A stretch of 64,000 nt of DNA. Source: Sabellastarte sp. h YS-2021. Taxonomy: Eukaryota > Annelida > Polychaeta > Sabellida > Sabellidae. Below the pieces are notes generated by a model, which did no database searches, was not told the origin of the DNA, and was given only the letters and a program-made list of their open reading frames with translations. Each line of letters starts with the position of its first letter. Positions within the stretch are counted from its first letter, which is position 1. The stretch spans positions 95,695,432-95,759,431 of the forward strand of contig OZ024933.1 in assembly GCA_964017235.1 (NCBI GenBank). Direction: 5' to 3'. Below are positions 23,814 to 63,804 of the stretch, in pieces. Position numbers and translations under genes: made by a program.

Positions 23814-23829
23814 GGCCCTTTTCAGGGTT
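23814..23829 (+). promoter_or_regulatory. histone-like 3' stem-loop of the element 1 Myb gene
   Basis: GGCCCT-TTTC-AGGGTT: a 6-bp stem (two G-U pairs at the base) and UUUC loop, followed directly by ACCA and, 9 nt after the stem, by TCCAAAAACAATTAT. This matches the layout of replication-dependent histone mRNA ends. In the tail frame no stop precedes it; a TGA lies 7 nt upstream (23804) in another frame. Confidence 0.7.
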
Positions 23830-24584
23830 ACCAAATCTTCCAAAAACAATTATTCAGCTACATGTTATTCCAATCCCCCCCCCCCCCAAAAAAAAAAACA
23901 AAAAAGTTCAGTACAAATACTTATCACAAGAAAAAAAAAGTTCAAGTCCAACACCTACACCACCCCAAACATGAAACAAATAACCCATGGTACCACACAT
24001 AACAAAAAAGGCCACATAAAAAAAATAAAAATAACTCCCAATATGGCCATTAATCAGCCCATTTTAGAGTAAAATGCATGGGATAGTTTAAAATCTGTAA
24101 CTGAAAAGTCCAACACTTACACCTTTCCTAGAGTTAAAAGTGATTATTACATACTTGCCTACCCACAAACAGACAAACTCAATACCAAACATAACCCCCA
24201 AATAACAAACCCAGTAAGAAACCCAACATCCAACTACCAATAATAAACCCAACCCCAGTAACCACCAACCAAGAAACACAAAAGCCCAAAATTAAATAGA
24301 ACCCATGCCAACAAACTCACAAACTATTTTGCAAACACAATCCCCCATTATTGAAAGCAAAACTAGTTCCATGGTTATATTTTCCACATTTTTGTGATTA
24401 GAAGTGAAGATTTAAAATTGAAGATTTCCATGAAAACCTTTCTGCTACAAATAAATTTCTAAGCCATGAACAAAAAAAAATTGGTGAAATTATGATGTGG
24501 ATTTGAAAATATATAAAAAAATAATTCAATTTCGGATATTATGTGTGACTTTGTGTTTGGCTTTTGTTTAACAGTGGGTTTGTC

Positions 24585-24884
24585 TGTTTGTTGGGTGAGA
24601 AAGTTGTGTTTGTCTGTTTGTCCGTCTGAACAAGTTATGTTTGGCATGGGGGTTGTCTGTTTGTCCGTCTGTACAAGTTATGTTTGGCATGGGGTTTGTC
24701 TGTTTGTCCGTCTGAACAAGTTATGTTTGGCATGGGGGTTGTCTGTTTGTCCGTCTGAACAAGTTATGTTTGTCAATGGAGTTTGTCTGTTTGTCCGTCT
24801 GTACAAGTTATGTTTGGCATGGGGTCTGTCTGTTTGTCCGTCTCAACAAGTTATGTTTGGCATGGGGTTCGTCCGTCTGTAGCA
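24585..24884. repeat. about 43-bp tandem repeat between the convergent genes
   Basis: The unit TGTCTGTTTGTCCGTCTGAA / CAAGTTATGTTTGGCATGGG is repeated about seven times with small variations. It fills the gap between the two 3' ends in element 1. The plus-strand open frame over it is a by-product of the repeat. Confidence 0.85.
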
Positions 24885-24919
24885 AACATAGCTGATTAAT
24901 TGTTTTTGGAATAATTGGT

Positions 24920-24960
24920 AGTCCTGAAAAGGACTGTTATAGTTAGTCCTGAAAAGGACT
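24920..24960 (-). promoter_or_regulatory. two tandem histone-like 3' stem-loops of the element 1 transposase gene
   Basis: On the minus strand, AGTCCT-TTTC-AGGACT occurs twice (24960-24945 and 24935-24920), each a perfect 6-bp stem with UUUC loop. The first begins 17 nt after the transposase stop codon. The second is followed by ACCA and, 9 nt after the stem, by TCCAAAAACAATTAATCAGC. Size, loop, ACCA flank and spacing are those of histone pre-mRNA 3' ends. No AATAAA is needed to explain the 3' end, though this was not tested. Confidence 0.8.
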
Positions 24961-24977
24961 GGTTACTGCAGCAGGAC

Positions 24978-26211
24978 TTATATTCTGCCATCTTGCCAGG
25001 CCACTGCTCCCTCATTGTTGAAGTAGTCCTTCAGGTAATCCCTCTGTCTTTTGGCTTCTCTAGCAGGGTTTCTGTCTTGGCCACCACCAGCAGCACCCCC
25101 AATCAATCCACAATCATCAGGTACATCATCATCATCGTCCTCCCCAGGCTGCTGACCACCAGGTTGACCTTGATACTGGCTTCTCAGTATGTTGTGTAGA
25201 ACAACACAGGTCAAGACCACTTCCCTGACTGTTGCTGGGGGTAGTTCAATGGTTGTCCTCATCACCCTGAATCTTGACACAAGGATGCCAAAAGTGTTCT
25301 CCACCACTCTTCTACCCTTGAAATTCTATAATTGGCAATCCTTTCCTCTCTGGTTAACATCCTTCTGCCATAGAGTTTCATGAGCCAGGTCTTCAGGGCA
25401 AAAGCATCATCTGCCAGGATGAAGTAGGGGACATCTCTCTCACCCTGGGTTATAGGAGCTGGGTCAGGGAAGCCTATCCTGCCATCCTCAATCCTCCTCT
25501 TCAGCTGAGAGGCATTAAATATCTGGCCATCCGAGCAGGAGCCTTCAGTACCCACATCCACCCATCTAAACTTGTACTGTCCATCTACCAGGGCCAACAT
25601 CACAATGGAAAAGAATCCCTTGTAGTTGTGGTAGAGGGCTCCAGTGTTCTTGGGCTTCTTCAGGGCCACATGCTTCCCATCCAGAGCTCCCAGGGCATGT
25701 GGAACATTCCATCTGATCCTGAATTCCCTCTCCAGTTCTTTCCACTCATCTGGGGTTGTAGGACACTTCAGGTACTCCCTGGTGAACTCATCCTGGATGG
25801 CCCTGCAGACCTCTGGTATAAACTTGGAGATGGTGGATCTTCCAACCCTGAACTGACAGGACAATGATGTGTAGGACTCTCCAGTGGCCAGATATCTGAT
25901 GGTGAGGGCTAACTTCTCACCAACACTGATTGGTGCTCTGTAGTTGGTGGCCTGCCTGGCTAGGTGTGGTTCCAGTCTGGTCTTTATCATTTCAAAAAAT
26001 TCTGGGGTCATCCTCATGTAGTTGGTGAATCCTGGAATATCTGTGGCATAAAGATCAGCCATAATGTTGTGGTAGGCCCCCTCTCCTCTCTCTGTAGCAG
26101 CCATGGCCTGACCCACATATTGTGCCTTCTTCTAGGTCTCTGTATGGGTGCTGGTGGTGCTGGTGGTGCTGGTGGTGGTTGCTGTGGTCGACGTAAAAAA
26201 TGGAAATACAT
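24978..26211 (-). CDS. PIF/Harbinger (HARBI1-like) transposase, element 1, with two apparent frameshifts
   Basis: DDE nuclease that would excise and insert the element. From an ATG at 26211 the frame encodes a Pro-rich start, then WVRPWLLQREERG, a hallmark N-terminus of the family. The next frame (about 26080-25316) gives YHNIMADLYATDIPGF, a helix-turn-helix region (YTSLSCQFRVGRSTISKFI), first catalytic Asp in GALDGKHV, and WVDVGTEGSCSDGQIF containing the second Asp. The last frame gives VVENTFGILVSRF with the catalytic Glu, VLHNILR and an Asp-rich tail, with stop TAA at 24980-24978. The breaks fall in G runs on this strand (plus-strand CCCCC 26077-26081 and CCC 25315-25317); one extra G at each restores a continuous reading. 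They may be real mutations or sequence errors. Confidence 0.9.
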
Positions 26212-26330
26212 GATTATTTGTAACTGAATAAAAACCAAAAAAGCCCTAAGTTGTTGTTGAATCTGTCTTCCATTAAAAGGTGGCATCCTGCTGTGTTCCC
26301 AGAAAAGCAATGATGATTAGATCGCGAATT

Positions 26331-26342
26331 TTATATATATAT
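26331..26342 (-). promoter_or_regulatory. TATA box of the element 1 transposase gene
   Basis: On the minus strand TCTGGG is followed by TATATATATATAAAAT, about 120-130 bp upstream of the ATG at 26211. The TCTGGG-TATA pairing repeats that of the Myb-gene promoters. Confidence 0.6.
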
Positions 26343-26389
26343 ACCCAGAAAATCCAGCAACTTTGGAAAACAATAATCGGGGATCCTGG

Positions 26390-26650
26390 TCTGGGGAAGA
26401 CTGAGGAGGCCTGAGGACGCCTGAGGACGCTGGTAGTTAATCGTGGGTTAGTCGGGGCTTAGTCCCAGGAGGCCTGAGGTGTCCTGGGACCCAGTCGGTA
26501 TGTGTACGACAGGATCGTGGTTGAAACCGACCTGAAAACTGGCTTAGTCGGTTCTTAGTCCCAGACTAGTCGGGGACTGTCTGCGGCCGCCTGAGGCGTC
26601 CTGAGGCGTCCTGGGGACGATCTGTTCTTAATCCCAGACTTCAGTACCGA
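26390..26650. repeat. right subterminal GC-rich motif array, element 1
   Basis: Words such as GAGGCCTGAGGACGCCTGAG, CTTAGTCCCAGGAGGCC, GTCCTGGGACC and GCCTGAGGCGTCCTGAGGCG. Same vocabulary as the left array at 21960-22345. Confidence 0.75.
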
Positions 26651-26749
26651 CCCAGTATTCCCGCCCATTTTTGTTATTTTCCCACCGACTGTCCACGATT
26701 AAGGGTCGCCGACAGGATCGGGGCTTAATCTTTTGGTGGAACAGGGGCA

Positions 26750-28599
26750 TAGGGCCTATAGTAACAAGTGCGGTTTTTTTGTGAATATTCCAATAATTAT
26801 ATCATCTACGGATATGTTGTATACATCATTAGAAATATATTTTTGCAGTTTTTTTAAATTTTATTTATGTTAATTTTATTTATTTTGTATTATTATTTTT
26901 TTTTTGCATTCAAATGCATGAAGAAATGGAGGAGACATCGCAAGTTAAAATTGAAGTTTTTATGTTCACTGGTGATCCTGTATATAACTTCTTTTTTTTA
27001 ATATTTATTTAAATATGGATTTTCAAACTTTATTTATTAATCATGCAACACGATGGATATTAAAAGTAAACATCTCTCATTAAACACATATGAAAAAGTA
27101 TATCACTCATGAACATTAACAAAATAATAATGCTTCTGCTGCACAGTCCTATTATATATTATCATCTTCATTTGTGATACACATTTTCAGATATGTCATT
27201 CCGGACTTTTTCCTATAGCAGGTACTTAAAGGGTCCAACTGGTATCTCTGGACCATCCAAGGATAGATATGTATTTGACCATATTTGGATCTGGCCATGG
27301 GTCCTGGCTCCTGATACGGCTCTCTTAAATATCCAATATCCTGTAAAAATTTTCTGGTATAACTATGTCTACAGGTGCAATTGTTATCAGTGTGTTTTCA
27401 TTCAGTCATATTAATCACCTACACCATCCGCTTGTGATAACCTAACAAGTTTTCTATCAGACAGTGATAATTGTGTTTTGATTAAAAGAGATAATTTTGA
27501 CTTGGTAAAGCTTGAGGTACGTCAGAAAACCATTTAATCATTGTTAAACTAGACTAAGCTTCAACCACAAATTAATTTTATAGTGGTTTGTTATTATCGC
27601 CCAAATGAAGGGAGAAAATGGTGTACATTGTAATCTAAGAAAACCTGGCCATTTTATAGCAGCAAACAGTAAACACTATAGGTAGATCTAGTATTAAAAG
27701 TGACATATTAACCCAATGGGTCTGAAAAATAATCTCATCCGTGTAACTGTGTTTGTAAACTTTTTATTATTTGCACGACACTGTAATATAATTCTGCTCG
27801 AGTGGAGTAATTTTCAGTGTCTTACCGTATTTGTGTGACTGTTGTATAATATACTTCATCATTTTGCGCAGTGTGTTTTGCAAGTTATATATAATAATAC
27901 CATAGGTTATGTCACATTTTATAGAATACAGCTTTTAACAACTATGTTATTCATTCATCAACACAAATTATATATGCAGTGAGTTTACTTTATTTTGAAT
28001 TTGCACCAGTGAATAAATAGGGAGTTTCCTTTGTTATCATATTATAGTTCTACATTATTTTGTCTCGATTGTTCGTTTGCCAAGCAAGAAATTTTTTTTT
28101 TTTTCATGCATGAAAGATTTCTCAACTTGTTTATCAGGGACAAAGGCCATGAAAGAAAGAACTATGAAGGAAACCACAAATAGAACTGAATAAGGAAGTT
28201 TCAACAGACAGTCTCGCATTGATTCACAAATACATCATGTGACAAGTAGATTGTGTGCTTTTTCATCAAGGTGTCAAAGTTGAAACCTATGGAGGCCCAA
28301 TGTTTTAAATTTACACATGTTTATATTGTTATTCATTAAAGACAGAATTACAGGCCAAAATAATGCGTTTAGAGAGATAATCGTTTGTGTTTCAGATAAA
28401 GTATGTTTTATTTTGACCAGTTAAATTTTGGCAATGTAAGTACAGTATAGTCCATATTATGGTCCATTCACACTGGCACAGTGTGCTTCACGACCTTGTC
28501 CTTAAGATGCATTCTTTGCAAGCCTTGGGCTGGTATTTACCATTCGTGAGTTCATATCTGTCAAAGGGAAACTTCCTGCGTTCTTCATTTATTTAGGCT
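26750..28599. other. AT-rich spacer, no gene seen
   Basis: Short frames only (for example 27193-27414) with no recognisable content. No RNA gene found. Confidence 0.5.
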
Positions 28600-28837
28600 G
28601 GCCATGGTAGCGCAGTGGTAACACACTTGCTTCCCACCTATGAGGTTTTCAGGTTCAAACCCTGGACCTTAATGTGGGAAAGTTGGTAGTGGCTTAATTA
28701 CCAATGATCGGTTGTTTACAGTACAGAACCTTGACCTACTGAATGTACTGGTTTCTTCTGCCCACAAAACTACTCGTGATGTGACCTGTACAGTGTTCAA
28801 AGCAACGTAAAACCCCAAATAAATAAAATAAATAAAT
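28600..28837 (+). mobile_element. tRNA-derived SINE (main family), plus strand
   Basis: The head GGCCATGGTAGCGCAGTGGT is A-box-like and TCAGGTTCAAACCCTGG is B-box-like, about 45 nt apart. The body has GTACAGAACCTTGACC and the tail ACGTAAAACCCCAAATAAAT. Target-site duplication is unclear because both flanks are AT-rich. Confidence 0.85.
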
Positions 28838-28839
28838 CT

Positions 28840-30266
28840 TTTTTATTTGAGACCAGCATGTTTTCACATATATTTGTAAACACACCAAAACGACAAATAT
28901 GAATATTGATAATAAATACAATTATTTGCTATGCACTGAGTAAAACACACATATTTAATGTTTTACATATATTCAGAAGTTATGTATTAGTGTTTTAAGT
29001 ATTAAAACAGTTTATTTCATGGATTTTTATAGCCAAAGCACACATAGTCTACACATTGTTGCCATCACCCGTGACATCGTGTATTCGTTTGTAAATTATT
29101 AAAGTAATTTAAGTGACCGGAAGTGATCTTTTCTATTCAGTTCAGGTATTTTGTATAACTAAAATCATTACACCAAGTGATCTGACAAGGAAGACTGACC
29201 ACTTCGGTCATGATTTAAGTGATCGAAGTGATAACAATCAAATACATGTAATATTGTATCTTCTCTGGATATTGCATTTAAAAGCGAGATGCCCAAAAAG
29301 CAATCCTGCCCCTTTTCACTCCTCTGGTGTGTACATTTTAGTTTATCATGTGAAAGCTCATATAAGAGGTTTTTCAAATATTTTATTGTTTTGTTTACAA
29401 AGGGTTTTCCATTCTATGTTGTATGTGTCCTTGCCAGATATGAATCCAGTCTTATTAAACCTAATGGAAACTACTAAAATACGAAATGCATTCAACCACA
29501 AACATACCCCGGAGAGTAATATATTTTGTGCCTGTAATCAAAACAGTGTGATATAGGTATTTACAAGAGAGATAAAGAAAAGGGCAAAAGTAAGAAAACA
29601 TTGTAGGCTAATGTAAAAATACAAATGTAATGTGTGCATATTTACATATGCATTAGTATACAATACAGAGCTCATGTTCTGTAAATACTTACTTTTTATT
29701 CAATAAACTATTCAGTTGACTATCTCTTATCCACACCCCAATTATCTGAAAATCTGGCTTAACCAAACTTTTTTATCTGTCCATTATTTCCAGTTTACTC
29801 TGTCCGTTGTGTCAAACTTACTTATATTTTAAATAACTATATAAGCAAATATAATAAAGACTTAAATACATTGCAAATAAGCTTGACCTATAAATTGCCA
29901 TTATTAATTAACTAATTAAATATATACATGCATGTACATAGGTTAAGCCAGTGGTTAATTAATTTTGGTAAAAGTATTTTTTATCAATTTTATCAGTCAC
30001 ATAACAAAAGGCAGTTTATGGGATGAATGAAATGCTGCACACTATTTCATCAAGATTCTGTACTGTATACCTGTAAAACATACGATATTCTTCAGCTACT
30101 ATCATGTCTGTCACCCCAGTACATGGTTGATGTTTGAATCCTGGTCCCAGAATAGAGAGATTAACGTATTGCCACAACAATGCAACCACCTCCGAATAAA
30201 TTATGAGTATTTTTTCACACACAGCAATGTGTGTAATAGCAAATGAAGGTCAAGGTTGTATTTGAC
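28840..30266. other. spacer, no gene seen
   Basis: A 147-residue plus-strand frame (29113-29556) begins with GTG, shows no domain and is not called. AT-rich otherwise. Confidence 0.5.
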
Positions 30267-30275
30267 ATTGCTGTG

Positions 30276-30508
30276 TTTATTTATTTGGAATTTTACGTGG
30301 CTTTCAACTCTGTATATGTCATATCACAATGGGTAGTTTTGTGGGCAGAGGAAACCAGTACATACAGTTGGTAGAGGTTCTGTACTGTAAACTGCCGACC
30401 ATCGGTAAGAAACTACCAACTTTCCAACATAGGGTCCTGGGTTTGAACCGCTGACCTCAGAGGTGGGAGGCAAGTGTGTTACCATTACGCCACCGTGGTC
30501 CCTTTCAT
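30276..30508 (-). mobile_element. tRNA-derived SINE (main family), minus strand
   Basis: The tail (TTTATTTATTTGGAATTTTA) is at the left and the head (GCCACCGTGG on plus) at the right, with B box TTTGAACC on the plus strand near 30441. The 9-bp flanks ATTGCTGTG at 30267-30275 and 30509-30517 are a probable target-site duplication. Confidence 0.87.
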
Positions 30509-30879
30509 ATTGCTGTGATCATACTGGGGCAGGCCACCATGAGGTGGATTCAAAGTTTTCAAACCCTAGAATCAATGATGTGACAGTGTAGTTATCATTT
30601 ACCAAATAAGGTAAAACTAAAGCATCTGCTAAACTAAAGAGAAAATATGTTAAAACTAATTATTCCAACATACAAAAGAAAATTACCATCAAGCAACTAA
30701 GGACACCCTCTCCAAGTGTTAACTGTGGGCTTTTTATTCAGCAAGGATGAAATGGAATTATACATTTAACCTTCTTTGTCATCTTTAAATTGTTCAGCGT
30801 GATACCTATACATTGCTAGATTGTGATATACAAGTGAAACTTGGGGTTCAAGACCCTTGCAACCGTCAAAATCATATCA

Positions 30880-30962
30880 AGACTTCCACATGTTGACATG
30901 TGCTGGATTCGAACTCGTTACCACGGAGGTGAGAGTGGACACATTGTGACATCCTCACTTAG
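30880..30962 (-). mobile_element. possible second-family SINE head
   Basis: Reverse complement contains CTCACCTCCGTGGTAACGAG then TTCGAATCC, a good Pol III B box. A related plus-strand piece is near 33590 (CTCACCACCGTGGACGTGAG). It has no clear A box or tail, so confidence is low. Confidence 0.4.
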
Positions 30963-31111
30963 GCATGTTTCTTAAACAGAAAATAACACAAATTGTGAGG
31001 AATTAAGGGATCCAGGAATCTTGGTAATGTATCTTAGTGTATTATTTAATTCATCTGTAACAATGATTGATTTGCTTTAGATGGTTTCATCAGAGTATAC
31101 CTGAAACAAAG

Positions 31112-31183
31112 TAAAAAAATCATTGATTGATTGATTGATGGATTGTTTAGTTGATGGATTGATTGACTGACTGACTGACTTTC
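31112..31183. repeat. (ATTG)n / (ACTG)n microsatellite
   Basis: Runs of ATTGATTGATTG, then GGATTG and GACTGACTGACTG. Confidence 0.8.
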
Positions 31184-31225
31184 AACACATTTTATAGGTC
31201 GTATCACAAAGGGAGTTAATCAACA

Positions 31226-31460
31226 CGTGCCACGGTGGCAGAGTGGTAACACTCGTGCCTCCCACCTCTGAGGACGGGGTTCGATCCTCGGCATGGCCTC
31301 AAGTGGGAAAGCTGGTAGTTGCTTGCCATTGGTCGGCAGTTTACAGTACAGAACCCTAACAAACTGTATGTACTGGTTTCCTCTGCCCTTCCAACTACCC
31401 GTCGTGATATGACCTGTACAGTGTTGAAAGCGACGTAAAACCCCAAATAAATAAAAATAA
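31226..31460 (+). mobile_element. tRNA-derived SINE (main family), best preserved copy
   Basis: Starts CGTGCCACGGTGGCAGAGTG; A box TGGCAGAGTGG, B box GGTTCGATCCT. The body includes GGTAGTTGCTTGCCATTGGT and TGTACTGGTTTCCTCTGCCC. It ends GCGACGTAAAACCCCAAATA then (AAAT)n. Flanked by the 8-bp duplication AATCAACA (31218-31225 and 31461-31468). Good reference copy for the family, about 235 bp. Confidence 0.93.
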
Positions 31461-46946: not shown

Positions 46947-48010
46947 ATTGGGGCATATGGGTGTGCAATGTTATGGTGTGACCTTGGTGTTACATTTGGT
47001 TTTTCCAAAACGTTTTCTGCTGCCATATTTGAGGCAAGTCTATCAACAGATATATAGATTGCTGCAACTGATTATTAAATGTGCTTTTACTTAATTGTAC
47101 TATACCCTATGGCAGTTAGATTTCAATTAAGAAATTTTACAGCTTCATAAATTTTAGTTTACTACTTAATGTTGTCACCTTGGTATTGAATTGCCTTGTT
47201 TTGATACTTTGGTACTTTACCTACATGTTTGCTCTCACACGTTATTTCTCCTGAACCTATACATAAGTTGTACGGTCTATTGTTAAATTCTCCTGACCTT
47301 TATACTGATTCACCCTTCTATATTTCATGGTATTGAAATGCTATTTCCCTGTGTTGTGGGGTACAGGCATCCCTCATGCTATTTTCAATTATTGGGGTTG
47401 TGGTTGAAATTACTCCAAAAATTACGAATGAATATTTCTGACATTTTTCTTGTACATATGGCCTGACCAATTGAAGAATTAAATCATTTCAGGAAACATG
47501 CAGATCATATTTTGCATACTCAGCTGCCTTGATATAGACCTGTCACAGACTGTCAATATCCATTACTTCAATACTGAATTTAGAATGTTACATATGTGTC
47601 AATGTTGGTTGCAGTTAAGTATAAAATTGTATTTCGTTTCTGTTTACCCATAGTCTAAAGATATGTTCAGATGGTTAAAAATGTAATGCATGTTCTGTTC
47701 CTCAGTTTTTCGTGACTTATTGTAAGATCGTACCAGTTTTAAAATTAGGCGCCTACTACAACTGGTCCTGTTGAAAAACAGCAGGAAAACTGACAATGTG
47801 ATTTGTCCCCATGTGAAAAGTTGTACAACTGAGATAAGTCCTGTGTTACCATGAACCACATGATGTATCACAATGGAGATGACAGTTTTAGTGACTACTA
47901 GTCACTTGATAATCGTATGGCCATTGAAGATTGTTTGAAATATATAGTTCAATGTTACTTTGCAGTACTAGGCTCATGGTGTTTGTTACTTTCTTTCTTT
48001 GTGTTTATAG

Positions 48011-49704
48011 GCAAAATAGAGAAAGTGAAATATCCTGCAATACCATGTCGTGATATAACATATGCGGTGCAGGCTATGCCACCAGAAGATGATGTGGTGG
48101 CTTGTATCTACCTCGGTTACAATGCAACTACCAACAGTGCAGTCCATGTACATGTGTACAGATGTGACTCACCAGATACAGCAGCCATCTTTGTCAACAA
48201 CCTGGAGATGTTTATCCAAAATCCAGAACACCAAGAGAGGCTGCGGAAAATTGAAGTGGAGTTGGCACGAAAAGGACAAATAGCCAAGCGGCCTGTTAGC
48301 AGACTAGATGATTACTTGCAGCAGAAGCAATTTCAAAATGGTGCTCAAAATGGACACAATAGCTGGAGGTCGAACACATCTGATGATGGAGTACATTTTA
48401 CTGCTGGTTCAGGGTCTTATTCCAGTGGCTCAGATCCCCATAGTCCACGTAGTCCTCTGGATGAACATGTGCCAGTGTTTGGAAACAGGAATTCACAGAG
48501 TTCCACACATGGAGATAAATCCTTGCCACGTCAGAGTCCAAGGACCTCTTCACATAATGAATATGAAGGGAAACTGCAGCCAACTCCAAGAAATTCAAAC
48601 TACGCGAATGAACCTCAGTGGCAAGTGCCAGCAAAAACAAATCCTGCCGCCTTCCATAAAGAACCTCCTCAAATAAGAATCAATACCATTGAAGAAAATC
48701 CCAAAGGTTTTGACTCCTTGGCTGATGAACTTAAAGCTAGACTTAGCAGCAATGAAGAAGCTCCCATCCTGTTGCCTCCAAAGGACTATGATACCATACA
48801 TAGGAAAAGGGGAAATGCATTTGACATGGGAAACAGAAAGTGTATGAACAAAGACATTGTCGGTAAATTTGTAGGCTTATATAATGCCAGTGCCAATGGA
48901 AATACCTCTGATGGCATCGTGACAAGCCAGGGACGGAGAACTTCAAATGGCGAGCATTCCAGAAACAACAGTGATACAGCTAATCAAGAAATAGTTGAAA
49001 TGTCTCAAGGTCCAATGACACCACCTGTTGATGAATATGGGAATAATCCATTCAGTCCACCAGCAAGACCATTTAGCCCAGGTCCACTTACCCAAGAGTT
49101 TACACAACAATCATACTTCCCAAGCGGTAGCCAGCAACAGCTGCCAAACTATCTCCAGCGCAGGAAGAGCTCACAAAGCCAAGGCAGTCACAGTAGACAG
49201 TCCAGTGCAGACCAGTCTTCTTTGGATAACAGTATGGACAAACGTATCTTCAGTTCATCTGATGGTGCAGCTGCCATCAGTCAACCAGGGGGCAAGTATT
49301 CTGCAGCTAAACTTGGACTGTCTCAGAAAAAGCCTCTTCAGAAACATATGTCATCCCCAGAGTTCAAGCAGGTCCCACAAATTCGAGGTGGTGGATTATA
49401 TAGAAGACAGTCAAACGATGAAGGGTACACGTCTATGGATAAAGGGCCAGATTATTTCCCGGAAGGAGACCACTTTTCTCCATCCCCACCCAGATCTGGT
49501 CGCAGTTCTGGATCAAATACAATGCGGTCTGATGCAGCAATAGATTTAGCTGCCAGCTTGCCTGCTATGAAATTAAAGGATGTCCTACAGAAACCCCAGG
49601 GCACACCGGTTTACATAGATGAAGATGATCCTGGAGCATTCGTCCCTATTGATTACACAATAGCTGTTCGTGGGGGAAAAGAGAGAAAAGGCTTACAAAA
49701 CTGA
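48011..49704 (+). CDS. PTB-domain adaptor-like gene, last coding exon
   Basis: Starts after the acceptor AG at 48009-48010 in the phase that completes the Gly codon begun at 45890, so the reading frame is continuous. Residues about 68-137 of the joined protein finish the PTB domain: YPAIPCRDITYAV, VVACIYLGYN, SAVHVHVYRCDSPDTAAIFV and the long C-terminal helix (NNLEMFIQ). The rest (about 140-631) is disordered, rich in Ser, Pro, Gln and Asn, with possible short motifs (FDSLADELKARLSS, LLPPKDYDTIH, RRQSNDEGYTSM). The stop is TGA 49702-49704. PTB proteins dock receptor tails or trafficking cargo; a signalling or endocytic adaptor is the likely role, but I cannot name the orthologue. No frame disruption was seen. 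Confidence 0.85.
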
Positions 49705-54050: not shown

Positions 54051-54805
54051 ATGGGCTTGTTCAACTGGAGCTGACCCTAAACGACCCTTACCAACTTGAC
54101 CCTTAATATCAGGGATAGGGGGCAAAAATCAAGAACAAATATGAGACCTATTCAATGATTACTTCAACCACGTTGGTGCACAAGTGTTTTTTTTATTTTT
54201 TTAAGTCTCACAGTAAATTTTAAAATATGTAAAGTGTCATTGTTTGAAATTTAAAAAACAGTTTCAACATATTTCCAACTTTGAAAGTTTCTGAAGTATC
54301 AAAATCTTTTATAATTTTCCAAGTTTCTCATGGGTCAAAATCATTTTAAAATTTTTGAAGTTTCTCAAACATCAAAATCTTCTTCAAAGTTTCCAAGTTT
54401 CTTAAAGGCCAAAATCTTGGAAACAGATTGAGAAGTTCAGAACCAGAAGGAATGTTCCCCACACTAGATGCGAAATAGGTCGCCATGAAGAAGCCAAAGA
54501 AATCAAATTAAATGTTACCATTTAGGGCTTCTTTTCCCTGGTTCTGCTAGCCTAGTGTGGATCAGTTTCTTAAGGTCAAAATCTTTTCCAAAGTTGTCTA
54601 CTTTTTCAAAGGTCAAAATGTTTTCAAATTCCACATTTTTTAAGAAAACAAAAGTTAAGTAAAAAATTTAGGTCGCTCACTCATTCCCTGACCAATTTTG
54701 TTTTTGTGTACTGGGGTGATGTGTTTTGTGTGAGGTGGTGTAATGTTTTTGTGTTTGTTTGTTTTTTAACACTCAGCTGATTAATAGTTTTTAGAAGATT
54801 CAAAT

Positions 54806-54851
54806 GGTCCCGAGAAGGACTTTTGAATCAGCAGTGGTCCTGGGAAGGACC
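54806..54851 (-). promoter_or_regulatory. two tandem histone-like 3' stem-loops of the element 3 Myb pseudogene
   Basis: On the minus strand: GGTCCT-TCCC-AGGACC (54851-54836), a perfect 6-bp stem beginning 23 nt after tandem TAG codons (54880-54875). Then AGTCCT-TCTC-GGGACC (54821-54806) with one G-U pair and one mismatch. Ten nt after the second stem comes TCTAAAAACTATTAATCAGC, matching the downstream block of element 1. Confidence 0.75.
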
Positions 54852-54874: not shown

Positions 54875-56551
54875 CTACTACTGCTGCTGCGTTGGCTGGG
54901 ATGATTGCTGAGGGACTGTGCTGGCTGCTGAGGAGGCTCTTGCTGTTGGCTGGTCGGAAGAGAGGTAGTGTGTTGATACTGGTCACTTGGTGTAAATAGT
55001 TGATGTGTGTTCATCTTCTGGTAGTTTATGACTGTTTATTCCCAAAATGGCTAGTGAGGCATGTGACAGTGTATAAAGTTTCTTCTCCTATGAAAGAGGC
55101 TACAGATTGCAGGTTGGAGTTCTTGCTTGGGCTGATGGAGAAATGTAGCTGTCTTGATGAAGTCCCAGGTTGTCAATCATTTACAAGTAAGTATGTGCTC
55201 TACTTCCCCCTGGGCTGTTGTCCTAGTGACACCACCTGGTCTGGCTGAACTTGTTGTATGACCTTGTTTGCTTGTGAAGGAAGCATCTGGGTGTCTGGAC
55301 AAAGTAAAAGTTTAGTTTTTTTGCCCAGTTCAACAGCCAGGGTCATATTAGGACAGGTCTTCAACATTGCAACTTGAGGGAGTCGAACCCCAAACAGAGG
55401 TGACAGCCTAGGATCAGATGCCAAACTTGCTTACCACTAGGCCACCAAGACCCTCTCTGGGTGTCTGTATTAGTTAAGATGTATTCCCTGGCAGCAGCTG
55501 CTGACTACTGTGGCTGGTGTAGGTTACTGTGGCTGGTTCCTTTCCTATGGCCTGGTTTGTATCCCAATTAAAAGTTAAATTGCCTCATTTCAAAATGTCT
55601 GAAAATCTCTTGCCTCAAAGTTTTCTTTTTCGGATGCCTGATAGCTGCAGAAGGCTGTTTTGGTGGTATCCTGTCTTGACCCAAGGAAAGATGTGAGCAT
55701 AGTTTCCATCTGGGTAAAACAATCCAAGACGTGCTGGTCGACTGTTGAAGGCTGAGACATTACACTGGTACTGGCGGTGTGGGTAATGGATGGCTGGTGT
55801 GTTTTGTCAGAGTGTATGCTGGTCTCCATACTGTCTGTATCCGTTGATCATCATGAAATTCATGGACTGAGGCTGCACTAGCACTGGCTCCTCTCTATGG
55901 TGACTTAAATCTGGAGTACTTGCGCAAGCCCTTCCTTCTGCTGTGGGTCTTCAAAAACTGAAACTTATCCTGAATCCACTGCTGCCTCTCAGGCATGTCC
56001 TTAGGAGCCTGGCCAGACTTGGACTGGGTTAATTTTCCATAGCGAGTCCTTTGGGATTCATCTTACACACTTTCACTGAAAGGTTGTGGCTGCTTGCGAA
56101 TTTCACCCACAGGCAATCTTTCCTTCCCTTGTTCTTGAACATGTTGTTTTTGTCTTAAAGCTCCTCATAATCCCTCACAAAGTAGACTATAGCCTTCTCA
56201 TCTGGGTCTGTTAAATGTTTGTCATTTTTCCTTTCTTACGTCTGGATAGGCAGTCAGTAGCCGGATGGTTTTCCTCTCCTCCACCATCTGTGTCCATTTC
56301 ACTTTCTCTCCTGTCAGTTCTGTGTCTTTTCACTGTCTCCTCTGTGAAATATACTCCTGTCCAATATCCGCCTAACTCCTGGCTTCCTCCCTCTCCTCTA
56401 CATGTTTTTCTATGCCTCCTCTGTCTCCCTCTGTTTCCTCTCCTCCCCCTCCTCTGGATGTCAGCAGCTGTATCCCCGGACTCAAATTCTGCAGGTGTGC
56501 CTGTGGGGACTTCTATCTTCCTGAATTTCTTTCTTGAATTTTACGACTCAT
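54875..56551 (-). pseudogene. Myb/SANT-like protein remnant, element 3
   Basis: Minus-strand fragments run in the same order as elements 1 and 2. From the N-terminus: KIEVPTGTPAEFESGDTAAD (about 56530-56470), SANT block DEKAIVYFVRDYEEL, then LWVKFASSHNLSVK, QRTRYGKLTQSKSGQAP and FQFLKTHSRRKG (about 56200-55900), QHVLDCFTQMETMLTSFLGS (about 55740), and a Gln/Ser tail ending before TAGTAG at 54880-54875. Several stops and frameshifts; a SINE interrupts it at 55298-55455. KIEVPTG and GDTA-D are shared specifically with element 2, so 2 and 3 are closer to each other than to 1. Confidence 0.85.
55298..55455 (-). mobile_element. tRNA-derived SINE (short family) inside the element 3 pseudogene
   Basis: The minus strand starts GGGTCTTGGTGGCCTAGTGG (A box TGGCCTAGTGG) and has B box GGGTTCGACTCC. 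It continues TTGCAATGTTGAAGACCTGT and ends AACTAAACTTTTACTTTG. Flanked by a perfect 12-bp duplication TCTGGGTGTCTG (55286-55297 and 55456-55467). Confidence 0.92.
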
Positions 56552-56628
56552 AAACCAAATCAAAGTAGCATTTAAAAAATCTATCAGCTAGCCAGTTCTG
56601 TGCACTAAATCCTAATTTTATATCCAAA

Positions 56629-57021
56629 ACAAGAGCACTTGGAGAGTGCAGACCTCCGCCAAGGGAGCTCAATCCGGATCACTCCCAGTATATTTTTCAT
56701 GGATCCAGACAGTGATCCAGATCACTCCCAAAATCTAATTACTTGTTCCTTGTCCCATTTAGGACATATCCTGAAAATTTCATCAAAATCCGTCCATAAC
56801 TTTTTGAGTTATCTGTCTTTAAAATTACATTTCATGGATCCAGAAGATCCAGATAGTGATCTGGATCACTCCCAAAATTGAATCATTTCTTCCTTTTACC
56901 TTTTCAGACATATCCTGAAAATTTCATCAAAATCCGTCGATAAGTTTTTGAGCTATCTTGTTCACAAACAAACCCACAAACAAACCCAGGCGAAAACATA
57001 ACCTCCTTGGCGGAGGTAAAA
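56629..57021. repeat. interspersed repeat with CCTCCGCCAAGG / CCTTGGCGGAGG ends
   Basis: Starts GAGCACTTGGAGAGTGCAGA then CCTCCGCCAAGGGAGC and ends AACATAACCTCCTTGGCGGA. Contains a near-duplicate internal block (CATATCCTGAAAATTTCATC, AAATCCGTC, AACTTTTTGAG) twice, about 145-150 bp apart. Best preserved of the four copies seen. Confidence 0.8.
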
Positions 57022-58024
57022 ACCCAAAAGCCTATTTGATATGCCACTTTCATCCGTAAGTGTAAATGATTCTGCCTGCATTCTGTCGGTCTCTTTAAAA
57101 GATTTTTAGAGGCGTAGATCACATAACCAAGCTGTGGGTCAGTGAGATTAAATAGATTTGTCCTATATACCTCCAAGCTTGTCTTTTGTTATAATTTAGT
57201 ATTACTTTAGTGATGTAAATTCGAAAGTTTTTTTGCACTTTTGTTCTTGCTGCATCAAAGTCACAATTTTTTTTTCAATTTTTTGGTTTCAATAAATATG
57301 GTCCAACCCTGCATTATCCAAAACTGGAAAAAAATCAACTCGCCTGAACTTAGGTTCACTGAGGGAGCTGTTATTATTTTATAGAAAAAATGGAAAAAAA
57401 AATATTTTTGAAAATGGATGTAAATTCGCCACTTTTTGAAAAAAAAACAACTGTTTTTCAAGCATAATACCTGCAACATACTTCGTTAAATTTAAGTTAA
57501 TTTGTAATTCTACATATTTTCTAACTGAAAATTGCTATTAACATAAATGTAACTTTTCAAAAGTTTGTCCCAGATAATTTTAAAATATTTTATTGGTACT
57601 TGCTAACAATTGCATAATTTACACTCTTTGAAGTCACTTGTAAGAGTGCATTATTAAAAAATATAAAAACAGTGAAAATGTTAAAAATTGGATGATGAAA
57701 TCTTGTAGTGCAATAGATATTTATTTTTCTACGTATATTTAAAAAAATATGATTTTCTTTCCGTATTTGTGCTGTAAAATTGACAAAAGCCCAAAAGTGG
57801 CGAGTTTACATCCATTGGCGAATTTATAAAACAGGCCAGTTTCCTTCCAAGTATGTTGGGTATTGTTCCCCAGCTTGTCTTGGATTGAAGCCACGGTACT
57901 TGACAAGGACAAACTACAAGAGTTATTAAACGACAAAACGATTACAAGGAAAAGACATAAACAGAAACTTAAGAGATGGTTTTTACCTGTGGGTGTGGCC
58001 ACTCTCGGGATGAAGAATAAAGGA

Positions 58025-58066
58025 GGGTAGGTGAAATATCAAACATGTTTGATATTTAGCCTACCC
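58025..58066. promoter_or_regulatory. 42-bp palindrome, element 3
   Basis: GGGTAGGTGAAATATCAAAC-A and its reverse complement with two mismatches, centred at 58045/58046. Core ATCAAACATGTTTGAT as in element 1. About 70-75 bp from the inferred Myb-side end once the 1.0-kb MITE is removed. Confidence 0.7.
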
Positions 58067-58071
58067 ATTAA

Positions 58072-59071
58072 GTGAAGTCCGGTGTAGCATCAGATAATGT
58101 ATTCCTAAAAAAGTGTGTGGGGATACAGAATATGACAGGTGGGGCCGTGAGATTCTGTATCGCCTGTTAAATTGTGTACCCCGATTGTCATATTTTGTAT
58201 CTCCTGAAGTGGGGCTAGTCCTATTGGTATTTGAGTCACATGTGCGTTTAGTTTTCTTTACTTTGTGATTAACCATCAGGGTTGGGTGTAGTACATTTGT
58301 GCTCATAATAACCTAAAAGAAAAGTTTAATGTTTTATGTGCATATGTAACAATTCATCCAATTAACTTGTTTGATTAATTTATATTTTCATATTAATTAG
58401 TGCAATTTAAAGAGGAAATTTTATAATTTATTGTTAAATTTTATAATCAGGCTCACCCATAAAATCATCCTTTGTATTTGTGTGGCCCTATTTGTGTTTT
58501 GCCCAAGAAAGGACTGATAGAATTAAGCCTCATTATATTTAGAGATAACTTTGATGTTGATTTGTTTCACTTTATGATTTGGGGATATTCCCTATTGTGT
58601 ACTTCACCCGCTCCAAGTGAAATAAATCAACATCAATAGAATATTGAGACAATAGACACAAATCCAATTAAGAAATTATCTCAATGAATGATAAAAAAAT
58701 CAATGTCAAGGGCATATTTTAATACTTTTCAGGGCTCAAGATACACAATTCATTTTAGTTTCAGAAATGAAGCTTATACAATGTGTTATTAAAGTCTATT
58801 TCAAGAACAGTGTGTCTTAGAACAACTCAATGATTATATCCTGTTTTCATATGATTGGCCTAAATGTAACTTGTCTTAATCTCCCTCCCAAAAGGCCACT
58901 TAAAAGGGATATAGGTTTTGATGGAGGGGTACAATATTTGATTCTCAAATTGTACACCCAATTAATCCCTCTATTGTTGGGGATACAAAATATTCTGTAT
59001 CCCCTAAAAGATCAAAAAGAGGGGGTACATAATTTGATGGGGATACACAATTTCATCTCACACCGGAAACC
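58072..59071. mobile_element. TTAA-flanked 1.0-kb MITE nested in element 3
   Basis: TTAA occurs at both borders (58068-58071 and 59072-59075). The inner ends GTGAAGTCCGGTGTAGCATC and (reverse complement) GGTTTCCGGTGTGAGATG are imperfect inverted repeats around TCCGGTGT. Inside are many GGGGATACA(G/A)AAT and GTACCCC words in both orientations. TTAA targeting suggests a piggyBac-like mobiliser. No coding capacity; element 3 homology resumes on either side. Confidence 0.75.
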
Positions 59072-59135
59072 TTAACCGACCCTATACGTCAAAATGTAAA
59101 CAAAGACAACCAACCTTTGAGTGGGTGAGGGTAAA

Positions 59136-59278
59136 CACCCCCCTTAAAAAAACGTGAAAGTGCAGGGCCTTTTCTTGCCCTCCGACCTACTTCGAGAACG
59201 AGGCGTCACGGAGATTCACTTCTATACACCCTACTGCACAATACTGTACAATAGTAAGTTCAGCGCTGACAGGACAGA
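59136..59278. other. short unassigned segment right of element 3
   Basis: CGTGAAAGTGCAGGGCC and ACTTCGAGAACGAGGCGTCA are more GC-rich than the surroundings. I see no promoter or coding signal that can be supported. Confidence 0.35.
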
Positions 59279-59652
59279 AAATATTATGTACGCAGTGGGA
59301 TGCCTATCCCACCACCGCCAAAGATCCTACATTATTTCTGCTTTCAGACTGGTAACCATGTGGTACCTGCTAAAACGAAATTTCTTAAATTCGTACTTAA
59401 AACACTTCTGAAAGGAAATGAGCTGCCTATCCCACTGTGCACACACAAGGGCGAGGAAGGGCTGACCTATCCCACTGTGCACACTTTTGAGGCTGAGCAT
59501 CCCACTGTGGCCATTTTACAAATGAGAAGAGATGCCTATCCCACTGTGCACACACAAGGGCGAGGAAGGGCTGACCTATCCCACTGTGCACACTTTTCAG
59601 GCTGAGCATCCCACTGTGGCCATTTTACAAATGCCTATCCCACTGTGGCCAC
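59279..59652. repeat. 107-bp tandem repeat (GCCTATCCCACTGTG family)
   Basis: Two full units start TGCCTATCCCACTGTGCACA at about 59425 and 59531. Each has CAAGGGCGAGGAAGGGCTGA and GGCTGAGCATCCCACTGTGG, and partial copies flank them. Open frames here are produced by the repeat. Confidence 0.85.
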
Positions 59653-59814
59653 ATTAAAGCGAGGAAGATGTGCAAATGGTTCTCAAGCCATGAATTCTTA
59701 CCTGTTTTATAGTTTTTGAAGCCCTAGAACTAAGAAAATGATGTTGCTTACAAAAGCAAAGCTTCCCCAAAGGTTAGATAGGTTTTATAGTTTAAACATA
59801 GATAAAAAGCTTGT

Positions 59815-60195
59815 ATATGGGGGTCACGGGGTAAATCTGACCATCTATATAGGCTCTTACATATGGTTTCCCAATACCTCTTAATACATTCTAAATGAGA
59901 TATTAGGCAAAAAGACAAATTGTACTGTTTTATGACCCCAGTTTGACCCATAAGAGGGGGGTCGGGGGTAAATCTGATGAACTATATACACTCTCTACCT
60001 ATGGTTTCCCAATACCTGTTGTAACATTCTAAAGCTGTAAAAGAAATGATAAAGGAGATATAAGGCAAAGTGTCAAAATCTGCTATTTTATGACTCCAGT
60101 TTGAACCCTACAGGGGGGTCGGGGAAAATTTAACTTGCTTTCTAGACTGTCCACATATGGTTTCCTGTTACTCCCAATATATTTTGTTGCTCTAA
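59815..60195. repeat. three diverged 140-157-bp tandem units
   Basis: GGGGGTCACGGGGTAAATCT (59818), GGGGGGTCGGGGGTAAATCT (59956) and GGGGGGTCGGGGAAAATTTA (about 60114). Each is followed by a TATGGTTTCC block. Confidence 0.7.
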
Positions 60196-60199
60196 ATGC

Positions 60200-60714
60200 A
60201 CTACTTAAAAATAATAGGGGGCTTCACATGAATTTTAAGTTTTCTGGTTGGTACCTGTGAGAAAATCACTCATAAATAAGTCAATTTTCAGCGGATCACT
60301 GCCAAAAGGTAATCAGCTCGAATTTTGATAGTATGAACATGTGTATGAAATTACAAGGCTCGGCATTGAGTAGATTTTGCTTAGCAATGGTGACAGGCGG
60401 GTGTACCCCCAAAATATTTTTCGATCATGTGACCTTGATAAAGATCAAAGGTCAAATTTAAGCATGTGGAAAATTTTTTCCATGCTTAAGGTACACAACT
60501 GCCAAATATGGTTGAAAAGCTTTCAATAATGAGTGAAATATTCAAGGGAAACCATAATGCAGCGGTGGTGGAGAGGAAACTGAAGTGAAAACAAATAACC
60601 CATAAGTGCTGTCAGGGTATTGTTTTCACCCATGGTATCTGGCTAGGTGTCTGGCTAGATGTTTGGGTATTCAGGTGGGTGGGCAGGCGGGCAGGCCAGT
60701 GGGCTTGAGGAAAA
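60200..60714. other. spacer, no gene seen
   Basis: No supported frame. GTGACCTTGATAAAGATCAA and similar words hint at the following repeat family. Confidence 0.45.
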
Positions 60715-61265
60715 GTTTGTCTGGGCTGTATCTCAGAAACTGTAAGGTGTAGGAAGTTGATACTTGGTAGGGACATTGTTTAGGGGTTGTAGGTGTGTAA
60801 TGTCATGGTTTGACCTTGATTTGACCTATGATGTTGCCATAGTGACCTTGACCTATAAATTCTTGTCTGGGTTATATCTCAGAAACTGTAAGGTGTAGGA
60901 AGTTGATACTTGGTTGGGACATTGGTTAGGGATTGTAGGTGTTCAACATGATAGTGTGACCTAGATTCACCTTTGAGCTTGCTGTAGTGACCTTGAACAT
61001 TAAAACCTTATCCAAACTATACCTCAGAATCTATAAGGTGTAAAAGGTTGATATTTGAGGTTTGGGTATGCAGAGTATGGCCTTGATTTGACCTTTGACC
61101 TTCTAGGCAGTGAACTTGAACTTAAAAATCTTGTTTGTGCCATATCTCTGAAACTGTAAGAAGAGAAAGTTGTAGAATGGTGTAGAAAGTTGATTCTTGG
61201 ATGGGTCATTGGTTGGGGATGCAATTATACTAAGTCATGGTGTGATCTTTAACCTTGGGTCTGCC
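60715..61265. repeat. about 145-bp tandem repeat (four units)
   Basis: TATCTCAGAAACTGTAAGGT then GTAGGAAGTTGATACTTGG recurs at about 60731, 60877, 61022 (diverged) and 61145, with TTGACCT and GTGACCTTGA between. Same family as the intronic copies at 46130-46450. Confidence 0.8.
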
Positions 61266-61489
61266 AAAGTTTGTTCACCTTCCATAATTGAGCCATATTT
61301 CTCTTATGACAAAGATATATGGATTGCTGTAACTGATTATTATTTGTACTTCTTAATTGTGCCATTTCTACTGGTAAGTACATTTCAATTTATAAATTTT
61401 ACAGCTTCTTATTTTTCTCTCTGAAACACTATTTTGCTCTGCAAACATTATTTGGACCTTTACATGATGCACTGTTTCCACTGGAACCG

Positions 61490-62040
61490 ACAGGCCGGTA
61501 ACTATGCATTTTTGGAGAGTTGGGGCCATTGTTTACATAGTCGGTTAGGGTCGGTTACAAGTTACCGGTCTGTCAGGGAGAGTCGGTGAAATATCAAACG
61601 TGTTTGATATTTCTATGACCATTGCCGACCCTTGTATCCGACCCTAATTTCAGCCCCCTAGCAACAGGCCTGTCGGTTAACTTAACGGCCTGTCGGTTAC
61701 ACTTCCCAGCTTGTCGTTTAATCAAACAGGCCTGTCTGTAACAAGTATCCGGCTTGTCCCAAATATGAACTTCCAGACTGTACATGATGACTCACCGACT
61801 GTGCGGGAAGTGTTACAGTACAGTTGGTAACTTTTGCCGGCCTGTCTGTAAGTGTTCCCGACAGGCCTGAAAAGTTTACAGGCTGGTCGGTAACTTTAAC
61901 AGACTGGGTCCTAGAGTCGGGAAAATTTCTAACTGACAGGCCTTAAACTGAAACAGACAAGCCATAAACAATAACCGACAGGCCTGTAACACTAACAGGC
62001 AAGCCGGCAATATTTTTGCTTCTTATGGCCTGTCGGCTTC
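61490..62040. repeat. subterminal motif array, element 2
   Basis: Repeated GGCCTGTCGGTTA, ACAGGCCTGTC and CCGACAGGCCTG words in both orientations. Same position as, but different sequence from, the array in element 1. Confidence 0.75.
61589..61612. promoter_or_regulatory. palindrome, element 2
   Basis: AAATATCAAAC-GT-GTTTGATATTT, about 120 bp inside the left end. Same core as in elements 1 and 3 with one central change. Confidence 0.7.
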
Positions 62041-62050
62041 AAAGTCTGGG

Positions 62051-62057
62051 TATAAAA
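62051..62057 (+). promoter_or_regulatory. TATA box of the element 2 Myb gene
   Basis: TATAAAA preceded directly by TCTGGG, 208 bp upstream of the ATG at 62265. Matches the promoter arrangement of element 1. Confidence 0.6.
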
Positions 62058-62264
62058 AGGCGAGTCAGTAGACAATCTGCATATATTTGATATGACTTTG
62101 ATTTGTCGACTGACAACTTGGTGTGCAGCTTTTCTTCAGGTTTTTATTTTGGGGAAATTAGCTTAAGTACTGAGCTAGGCTGGACTGGTTGGGAGTAAAA
62201 TCTGTTCTGTGAGGTTTCACTTTTATTTTAAGATTTTGTTTTTTAAAACAAGCTGTACACTTGA

Positions 62265-63765
62265 ATGATTCATCAGCATATGCCAAGGGGCAGAAGGAGA
62301 AAGATTGAAGTACCAACTGGAGACACTCAACCACAGTTTGAGTTAGGAGATACAGCTGAGGATATAGAGGGAAGGAGGAGGGAGAGAGAGGTGAGGGATC
62401 AGAGAGAGAGAATTGAACAGGCGGAGAGGGACAGAGAGAGGAGGGAGGGAGAGAGGAGGGAAGAGAGCCAGGAAAGAGGAGAGAAGAGAGTGCGAACTGA
62501 TATGGATACTGATGTAGAATCAACTCAATCCACACAGAAGAAGGGCCAGATGAAGTCCATTTTCCTGAGTGATTCAGACAAAGAAGCCATCGTGGAGTTT
62601 GTTAAACAGCACGAGGAACTGTGTGACAAGACCAACGACAGTTTCAAAGACAAGCAGAAGAAGGAAGGACTTTGGGAGCAGCTAGCAGCTACCAGAAACT
62701 TGTCAAGACTGTGAAAAAGTGGTTCAATACTCAATGTACCAGATATGGCAAGCTCACTCAGATGAAGTCAGGACAAGCAGCTGAGAAGAGCACAGAATGA
62801 CAGACCTGGCTGAAGGACAGTTTCAGTTTTCTACAAGGTCACATCAGAAGGAAGGGAGTTTCCAAGTCTTCTGCATTCAAGTCACCCCAGAGGCCGTCTG
62901 CAGCCGCAGCTTCAGTTCGAGATACATCCGGGGACACAGAATCCGAGAAGGAAATCAGCATTACATCAGATGTTACTCATCGGCCTTCGAGTACCAGTCC
63001 CAAGCGATGACAGCGTCCAGTTGCGACTACCGCCACATCTGCAAATCCAGTCTTAGATGGGTTCTAGCAGATGAGGTTGATGATTTTCACATTTTTGGGT
63101 GCACATCAGGACCCCACTCCAAGTCCTCGACAGTCGTTCTGCAACTATCTCCACTCTGAGATTGAACATCTTGAAGAAAGGGACTTTTTAACCTTCAGGA
63201 ATGACACAGTGAAGCTTCTCAGTAAAATACAGTACAAGGCCAAAGAACGCAAGAGACATTTCACCACAAGTCAAGAGGTCACCACATATCAACATCCAGA
63301 AGCACCACAGTCCACAGCAGGACGGTAATATGTACTCACCATCCCGGAAACTCAACCAGTCTCCATTCCAGTTGTGCAGCCTCAACAGACTACCACAAGA
63401 CAGCCTGTTACAGTGATTGTGAAAGTACAGCAAACATCGGGGCCTTCATCATTGTCAGTACAGCCTACTTCTTATGTTGTGAATGACCAACAGCCTGGGA
63501 CTTCCAGACAGATGATTTTCAACCCACCTTCAGTTGCACCTTCACAACAGGAGGAGAGTCAGACAACACTTCTGGATTATCCAGTCTCTTCACAGCTATT
63601 CCCAGTGTGCTTCAGTATCAACAGATGGACACACCACAGCCATTTTCACCATCTCAACTTCAACCAGCACCGTCACACATGCCATCTTCCACTCATCATG
63701 AACATTCAAGACCTCCCAGCCAGTCCAGCCAGCAGAGTCAAAGTCAGCCCAAATCAACGGATTAG
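62265..63765 (+). pseudogene. Myb/SANT-like protein remnant, element 2
   Basis: ATG at 62265 (a second at 62279). The frame gives RRRKIEVPTGDTQPQFELGD, a Glu/Arg-rich segment, and the start of the SANT domain (SDKEAIVEFVKQHEELCDKT, EGLWEQLAATRNLS). It then shifts near 62700 into VKKWFNTQCTRYGKLTQMKS, hits a TGA near 62798, and continues with SFSFLQGHIRRKG and later pieces. The C-terminal frame is Gln/Pro/Ser-rich (QYQQMDTPQPFSPSQLQPAP) and ends QPKSTD with TAG at 63763-63765. Several frameshifts and stops. Same protein as in elements 1 and 3. Confidence 0.85.
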
Positions 63766-63788
63766 CCCGCACAAGTCACACCAAACTC

Positions 63789-63804
63789 GGCCCCTCTTAG
63801 GGCC
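63789..63804 (+). promoter_or_regulatory. histone-like 3' stem-loop of the element 2 Myb pseudogene
   Basis: GGCCCC-TCTT-AGGGCC: five pairs plus a C-A mismatch next to the loop, beginning 23 nt after the TAG. It is preceded by CACCAAACTC and followed by ACCC and, 10 nt after the stem, TCCAAAAACAATTAAC. Confidence 0.72.

Follow-up and report, generated by a model that had tools for sequence, protein, structure and literature searches.

Replication-dependent histone mRNAs carry a 3' stem-loop that is bound by SLBP, and the U7 small nuclear RNA (snRNA) pairs with an element downstream of it; cleavage follows immediately past ACC(C)A and leaves the RNA without a poly(A) tail. To our knowledge, this SLBP/U7 pathway of animals is regarded as devoted to the replication-dependent histone genes. 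A stretch of 64,000 nt in the genome of the annelid Sabellastarte sp. h YS-2021 (assembly GCA_964017235.1, contig OZ024933.1; C7:95695432-95759431, here called the window, from a genome of 1.786 Gb in 647 contigs) raises the question of why genes of three PIF/Harbinger DNA transposons should end in stem-loops of this type. The match of both the stem-loop and the downstream signal to the histone genes of the host suggests that the transposons borrow the histone mRNA machinery, and it is very probable, judging from these signals, that SLBP and U7 would process the transposase and Myb mRNAs as they do those of histones.

Element 1, with a signal at the end of each of its two genes, is made up as follows (window coordinates and strand, with the evidence in brackets).

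21797..26749, no strand: element 1, a PIF/Harbinger DNA transposon (terminal inverted repeats TGTGGGTGTTCCACCA and the reverse complement TGCCCCTGTTCCACCA; convergent Myb and transposase genes)
22417..22424, plus: TATA box TATATAAG, 5' of the Myb gene (sequence)
22598..23754, plus: Myb/SANT (MADF) gene, broken copy (PF10545, 6.9e-12; tblastn, 98% and 91%)
23814..23829, plus: histone-type stem-loop ending the Myb gene (Histone3 match, shuffles)
23838..23852, plus: downstream block TTCCAAAAACAATTA of the Myb gene, like that of host H1 and H3 (sequence comparison)
24897..24911, minus: transposase downstream block TTCCAAAAACAATTA (sequence comparison)
24920..24935, minus: second of the two transposase stem-loops, with ACC directly after it (Histone3, 32.4 bits, E 1.9e-5, below gathering)
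24945..24960, minus: first of the two transposase stem-loops, 17 nt past the stop codon (sequence, relatives, shuffles)
24978..26286, minus: transposase gene (DDE_Tnp_4), broken copy (PF13359, 3.6e-20; tblastn)
26331..26343, minus: TATA-like run, 5' of the transposase ATG (sequence)

The other two elements contribute one gene end each.

54836..54851, minus: first stem-loop of element 2 (GGTCCT/AGGACC), 23 nt past the stop codon of a Myb-like gene (sequence)
54806..54821, minus: second stem-loop of element 2, with one A-C mismatch, followed by ATT rather than ACC (Histone3, sequence)
54782..54795, minus: downstream block TCTAAAAACTATTA of element 2 (sequence comparison with host histone genes)
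62051..62059, plus: TATA box TATAAAAAG, 5' of the element 3 Myb gene (sequence)
62265..63765, plus: Myb-like gene of element 3, broken, ending at a TAG 23 nt before the stem-loop (PF10545, E 0.002)
63789..63804, plus: stem-loop of element 3, five pairs and a C-A mismatch, followed by ACC (Histone3, shuffles)
63815..63828, plus: downstream block TCCAAAAACAATTA of element 3 (sequence comparison)

The hairpins, initially proposed in a sequence-only reading, are present at these gene ends within three PIF/Harbinger elements, both on reading the sequence and from the Rfam covariance model Histone3 (RF00032, gathering score 34), which was searched across the whole window and the whole genome and matches the same four sites. 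There is no Histone3 match in the 64,000 nt at or above the gathering score, all four transposon sites scoring below it (element 1, 32.4 bits at 24940-24895 minus, E 1.9e-5, and 21.9 at 23809-23854 plus; element 3, 20.6 at 63784-63829 plus; element 2, 17.5 at 54826-54780 minus). Three histone-like stem-loops followed by ACC occur in the window, against a mean of 0.03 and a maximum of 1 in 200 dinucleotide-preserving shuffles; where ACC is not demanded there are five, against a mean of 0.12 and a maximum of 2. The hairpins of histone-type form at the window gene ends are thus confirmed as real. A further weak Histone3 match at 12789-12825 (18.6 bits) was rejected, there being by eye no stem or block of the histone kind and no open reading frame (ORF) of at least 100 aa near it.

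Most of the detail first read from these ends agrees with the sequence, including stop-to-stem distances of 17, 23 and 23 nt and the ACC that follows the stem at the ends of the element 1 Myb gene, the element 1 transposase gene (second stem) and element 3. The stems had all been taken to be paired, which is true of four out of six; each of the other two has one mismatch (C-A beside the loop in the stem at 63789, leaving 5 bp, and A-C in that at 54821-54806). Two of the pairs in the element 1 Myb stem are G-U, at positions where its relatives have G-C. The absence of an in-frame stop before this stem is a property of the broken window copy and not of the gene, the stop codon being 32 nt 5' of the stem in 17 of 18 copies in the element 1 family.

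Element 1 is a PIF/Harbinger transposon, having a DDE_Tnp_4 transposase, a second ORF with a MADF domain, terminal inverted repeats and 3 bp target duplications. Its ends were placed by means of a common core TGTTCCACCA in 15 two-ended copies, that of the window included; on reading by eye, TTA or TAA is identical on both sides in eight of these, and the flanks differ in seven, the window copy among them. Scoring of 40 of 1070 candidate relatives of the Myb 3' end gave 39 outside the window, which are 91–96% identical, and at the 20 element 1-type loci that were read the exact Myb stem-loop is present in 18 and the exact transposase stem-loop, which lies outside the query, in 19. In 15 of the 18 copies the Myb ORF occupies one exon and has 392–407 aa (about 405 aa when intact), and in 10 of the 19 that of the transposase likewise occupies one exon, with 430–436 aa (about 433 aa when intact); at locus L021 the Myb ORF matches PF10545 (MADF, 1.4e-11), and at L014 a transposase ORF of 436 aa matches PF13359 (1.3e-32). 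The transposase stop codon is 17 nt 5' of the first exact stem in 18/19 copies, with a tandem pair of exact stems, 25 nt apart, in 17/19. The number of transposase stems does vary, there being three in tandem, 23–25 nt apart, at L143 and one at L145. The Myb TATA motif recurs in all five copies for which the 5' flank of this gene was examined, and the TATA-like run of the transposase gene is common to the three examined in the same way. Between the two convergent genes of the window copy there are also 43 bp tandem repeats (24608-24880).

The Myb-like protein of element 2 has 53% similarity over 62 aa (56086-55901). The PF10545 match of element 3 (E 0.002) is below the Pfam cut-off, and its protein shares 35–41% identity with that of the element 1 Myb gene. 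By eye, all three elements have a palindrome of similar sequence (near GAAATATCAAACATGTTTGATATTTC), at 21915-21952, 58031-58058 and 61585-61613, which is a possible protein-binding site.

The likeness of these ends to those of the host is close. In the H1, H2A, H2B, H3 and H4 genes of the host that were read, the 3' end is GGCTCTTTTCAGAGCC followed by ACC, the stem being 34 nt (H1), 31 nt (H2A), 34 nt (H2B), 33 nt (H3) and 38–47 nt (three copies of H4) past the stop codon, and the block after the stem being TTCCAAAAACAATTAAT in H1 and H3, TTTCAAAAACAATTATTCAGCT in H4 and TTTCAAGAACTTTTATT in H2A and H2B. The transposon genes end in GGCCCTTTTCAGGGCC (Myb) or AGTCCTTTTCAGGACT (transposase, often in tandem), again followed by ACC, with TTCCAAAAACAATTATTCAGCT past the stem in the Myb gene of element 1 and TTCCAAAAACAATTAATCAGCT in its transposase gene. 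The stem-loop is thus of the same kind and the ACC is the same, with the block TTCCAAAAACAATTA present in H1 and H3, 9 nt past the stem; element 1 has a spacing of 8 nt, and several further Myb families one of 9 nt. ACC(C)A immediately after the stem is general, the exceptions being L036 (ATCC), the L030 transposase gene, the first stem of tandem transposase pairs and, in part, both stems of element 2. Over the 38 nt past the stem, 15 transposon ends are 71–89% identical to the nearest host histone gene (76% to both H3 and H4 in element 2), and all of these ends except one exceed each of 1000 shuffles in this likeness. The genome also has a match to the RNA-binding domain of SLBP at C6:90.39-90.40 Mb, split into two parts (E 3.7e-12 and 1.3e-5) that lie some 11 kb from each other.

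The stem is kept between families. Among thirteen distinct transposon stem-loops, 96.2% of cells are paired and three of the six stem pairs have compensatory changes (two from C-G to U-A and one from G-C to A-U). The covariation score of 0.408 compares with 0.279 in shuffles, is reached by 0/500 of these and is higher than for slid structures. In 18 Myb-family representatives, 15 of them picked by the Histone3 model, mean pairwise identity is 0.91 for the stem-loop itself and 0.83 for the 42 nt stretch, compared with 0.61–0.67 in the flanks and 0.55–0.59 in shuffled segments, and the Myb proteins of the families compared are roughly 35–80% identical. Elements 2 and 3 and L009, and the transposase genes of L141, L143 and L145, were found independently of the model. 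Between L029 and element 1 blastn finds similarity in the stem-plus-block stretch alone (42 nt at 90% at the Myb end and 47 nt at 85% at the transposase end), while the L029 transposase protein is 44–52% identical over two stretches despite the absence of DNA similarity outside the signal. The proposal that the transposons use or mimic histone 3' processing is therefore supported, both the conservation of the stem and the form of the host histone genes being favourable to it.

Across the genome, 75 of 382,297 Histone3 candidates were scored, all above the gathering score, and these comprise 32 Harbinger Myb genes, 37 histone genes and 6 unassigned places (L107, which has a clear likeness to the others in the signal alone, and five places that were not read). 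Ten of the eleven top scores are transposons. The histone matches fall into a core cluster at C2:27.65-27.74 Mb (5) and an array of H1 genes in tandem at C4:31.45-31.51 Mb (32, of which 19 were read and 13 assigned from their position in the array). The stem-ACC-block pattern CTTTTNAGNNNNACCNNNNNTTCCAAAAACAATTA, which has the spacing of element 1, has 3,359 exact occurrences, the first 100 of which are of the Myb or transposase type by sequence and two of which can be held by one element, against 0 for the reversed control; the H1 and H3 genes read fall outside this pattern because of an additional base. Exact occurrences number 1,966 for the Myb-type stem with ACC and 39 for the host-type stem with ACC, the control being 0 in each case. 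Of the 39, the core cluster holds 6 and the H1 array 32, with 1 more on contig C8, so that the 19 nt motif of the host type is almost wholly limited to histone genes. The compensated form of this motif is abundant in the transposons. The C8 occurrence (C8:62488613-62488631) is the sole host-type stem-loop with ACC outside both histone clusters. The Myb-type stem-loop GGCCCTTTTCAGGGCCACC also occurs as six exact copies in a tandem arrangement at C1:64935297-64942615, where the period is exactly 1460 bp; this may be part of a Harbinger element that was amplified in tandem, or else an array of genes that has escaped recognition.

The signal is not a general property of Harbinger transposase genes. 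A sample of 25 transposase 3' ends was drawn from the top 150 of 10,138 DDE_Tnp_4 candidates, and three (L141, L143 and L145), all with the C-terminal sequence of element 1, have the stem-loop. It is absent from the other 22, for which the length read was 800 nt in each of L109-L128, 400 nt in L142 and 330 nt in the relative L144; two loose hairpins at L126 are not of the histone form. From coordinates alone, of seven DDE_Tnp_4 matches on contig C1 below 48.25 Mb, which include L141 and L124, four have the exact signal 260–266 nt downstream and three do not. Among the three families in which it was read, two have the signal on the transposase gene as well.

With these cis signals at nearly the spacing of the host, both mRNAs would be expected to be processed as those of histones are. 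SLBP would bind the transposon stem-loop and the U7 small nuclear ribonucleoprotein (snRNP) would cut the transcript a few nt past it, which would give an intronless, non-polyadenylated mRNA that is exported, translated, stored and destroyed in the manner of histone mRNA. Production of the two transposition proteins would then coincide, at the time of DNA replication and in oocytes and early embryos that are being loaded with histones. In fish PIF/Harbinger elements the Myb-like protein interacts with the transposase, which allows their joint nuclear import (PMC9179366), and the same signal on both genes may therefore serve to provide the two proteins simultaneously. Expression of the transposon genes would be tied to replication and probably also to the oocyte and early embryo, where histone mRNA is stored. 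This may well be a lineage of DNA transposons that runs on the histone mRNA pathway, its transposition timed to replication and to histone-rich oocytes and embryos. Given 3,359 transposon-type signals and 39 host-type stems, the transposons might compete with histone mRNAs for SLBP and U7. As to origin, similarity to the host is longest with H1, where in L092 and L095 it continues to the last of the 38 nt. This would fit an ancestral element that captured the 3' end of a histone gene, after which the second gene acquired it and the stem was duplicated in tandem; an alternative would be convergence on the U7 of the host.

Other explanations of the stem-loops can be considered. Short hairpins are generally common, yet the idea that these arose by chance in A/T-rich 3' regions is refuted by both the window shuffles (three against a mean of 0.03) and the genome counts (3,359 against 0), and its probability is negligible. 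The stem-loop might instead bind the transposase, form a hairpin in the DNA itself or act as a barrier separating the convergent genes, in keeping with the arrangement of the hairpins, those of one gene pointing towards that of the other across about 1 kb, but this would leave unexplained the histone loop, the ACC, the host-like block at near-equal spacing and the stop codon 17–32 nt away, and is very unlikely. It is also improbable, if less so, that the signal is the fossil of a captured histone 3' end in genes which now use ordinary polyadenylation further downstream. The H1-like stretch that runs to its end at L092 and L095 is as expected from capture, and there is an AATAAA or ATTAAA 105–278 nt past the Myb stem in all 18 copies; against this, neither hexamer is present within 420 nt of the transposase stem in any of 19 copies, the stem has been duplicated in tandem in the transposase genes, and compensatory changes have occurred in a signal that is far better conserved than its flanks across families. 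A variant compatible with histone-type processing is that the pathway is used and that the benefit is storage and translation in the oocyte and embryo, and not coupling to S phase. Germline expression is, as a matter of general knowledge, the most profitable for transposons, while no evidence separates this variant from the S-phase version and both can hold; it is offered as a tentative possibility.

Several observations weigh against processing of the transposon mRNAs by SLBP and U7. The hexamers 3' of the Myb stem in 18/18 copies would make a polyadenylated form of that mRNA possible. The L030 transposase gene, the one end of the 15 compared with the host that does not exceed all of its shuffles (17/1000 reach its likeness), is without ACC and has a weak block, and in the L029 family, where the Myb gene has the signal, the one transposase gene read has no stem-loop. 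In two of the five covariation measures shuffles reach the observed value, 111/500 for pairs changed on both sides and 88/500 for further pair types, and the picking of 15/18 Myb representatives by the Histone3 model biases them towards conserved stems. The U7 snRNA of the host was also sought. The Rfam U7 model matched nothing in the host genome, nor in the control genomes, and pattern searches for an Sm-like site together with the predicted complement of the block gave 21, 31 and 1 matches, compared with 19, 23 and 1 in the control. There was no convincing U7 gene among the 33 of 53 pattern places that were read (21/21 from the first scan and 12/31 from the second), and none of 12 candidates scored against Rfam matched U7. 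L069 and L130 have a hairpin further downstream of the pattern and were rejected, being unlike U7 by eye.

In their DDE transposase, Myb/SANT-like protein, terminal inverted repeats and 3 bp target duplications these elements are like other PIF/Harbinger transposons, such as those of fish, and they differ from those known in having genes that end in histone-type stem-loop signals. They resemble the replication-dependent histone genes in the 6 bp stem, the pyrimidine-rich 4 nt loop, the ACC(C)A, the downstream block and, in the element 1 family, the lack of introns. Unlike histone genes, they are scattered as many copies and code for the proteins of transposition, and the transposase gene has often two, and once three, stem-loops in tandem and a stop codon 17 nt away. 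Clam histone genes are reported to have stem-loops and purine-rich elements that are partly displaced (PMC6210712). The use of a host RNA-processing signal by a mobile element is akin to other host-signal mimicry by selfish elements. No transposon or mobile element with a histone-type 3' signal was reported among the best matches of a literature search that covered few subscription papers. In viral contigs the pattern GGYYCTTTTNAGRRCCACC was matched twice, each time inside a phage reading frame, and these matches were set aside as chance.

If the transposon mRNAs are processed in this way, SLBP/U7 would be a host pathway taken over by selfish DNA, there would be a direct mechanism coupling transposition to DNA replication, and the varied stems and tandem stem-loops would be natural substrates for SLBP and U7. 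In practical terms, Rfam Histone3 matches in such a genome miscount transposons as histone genes.

Elsewhere in the window, an ORF of 595 aa (47917-49704) has no Pfam match at 0.01. The same is true of the four ORFs tested from a series at 18144-21088, the last of which resembles, by eye, a tyrosine recombinase such as those of DIRS-type elements. The first part of the window (4-1812) is a satellite-like tandem array of 10.8 copies of a 169 bp unit, with seven weak U4 snRNA-like Rfam matches below gathering, and at 15592-17053 there are tandem arrays of 43 bp units that are strongly self-complementary.

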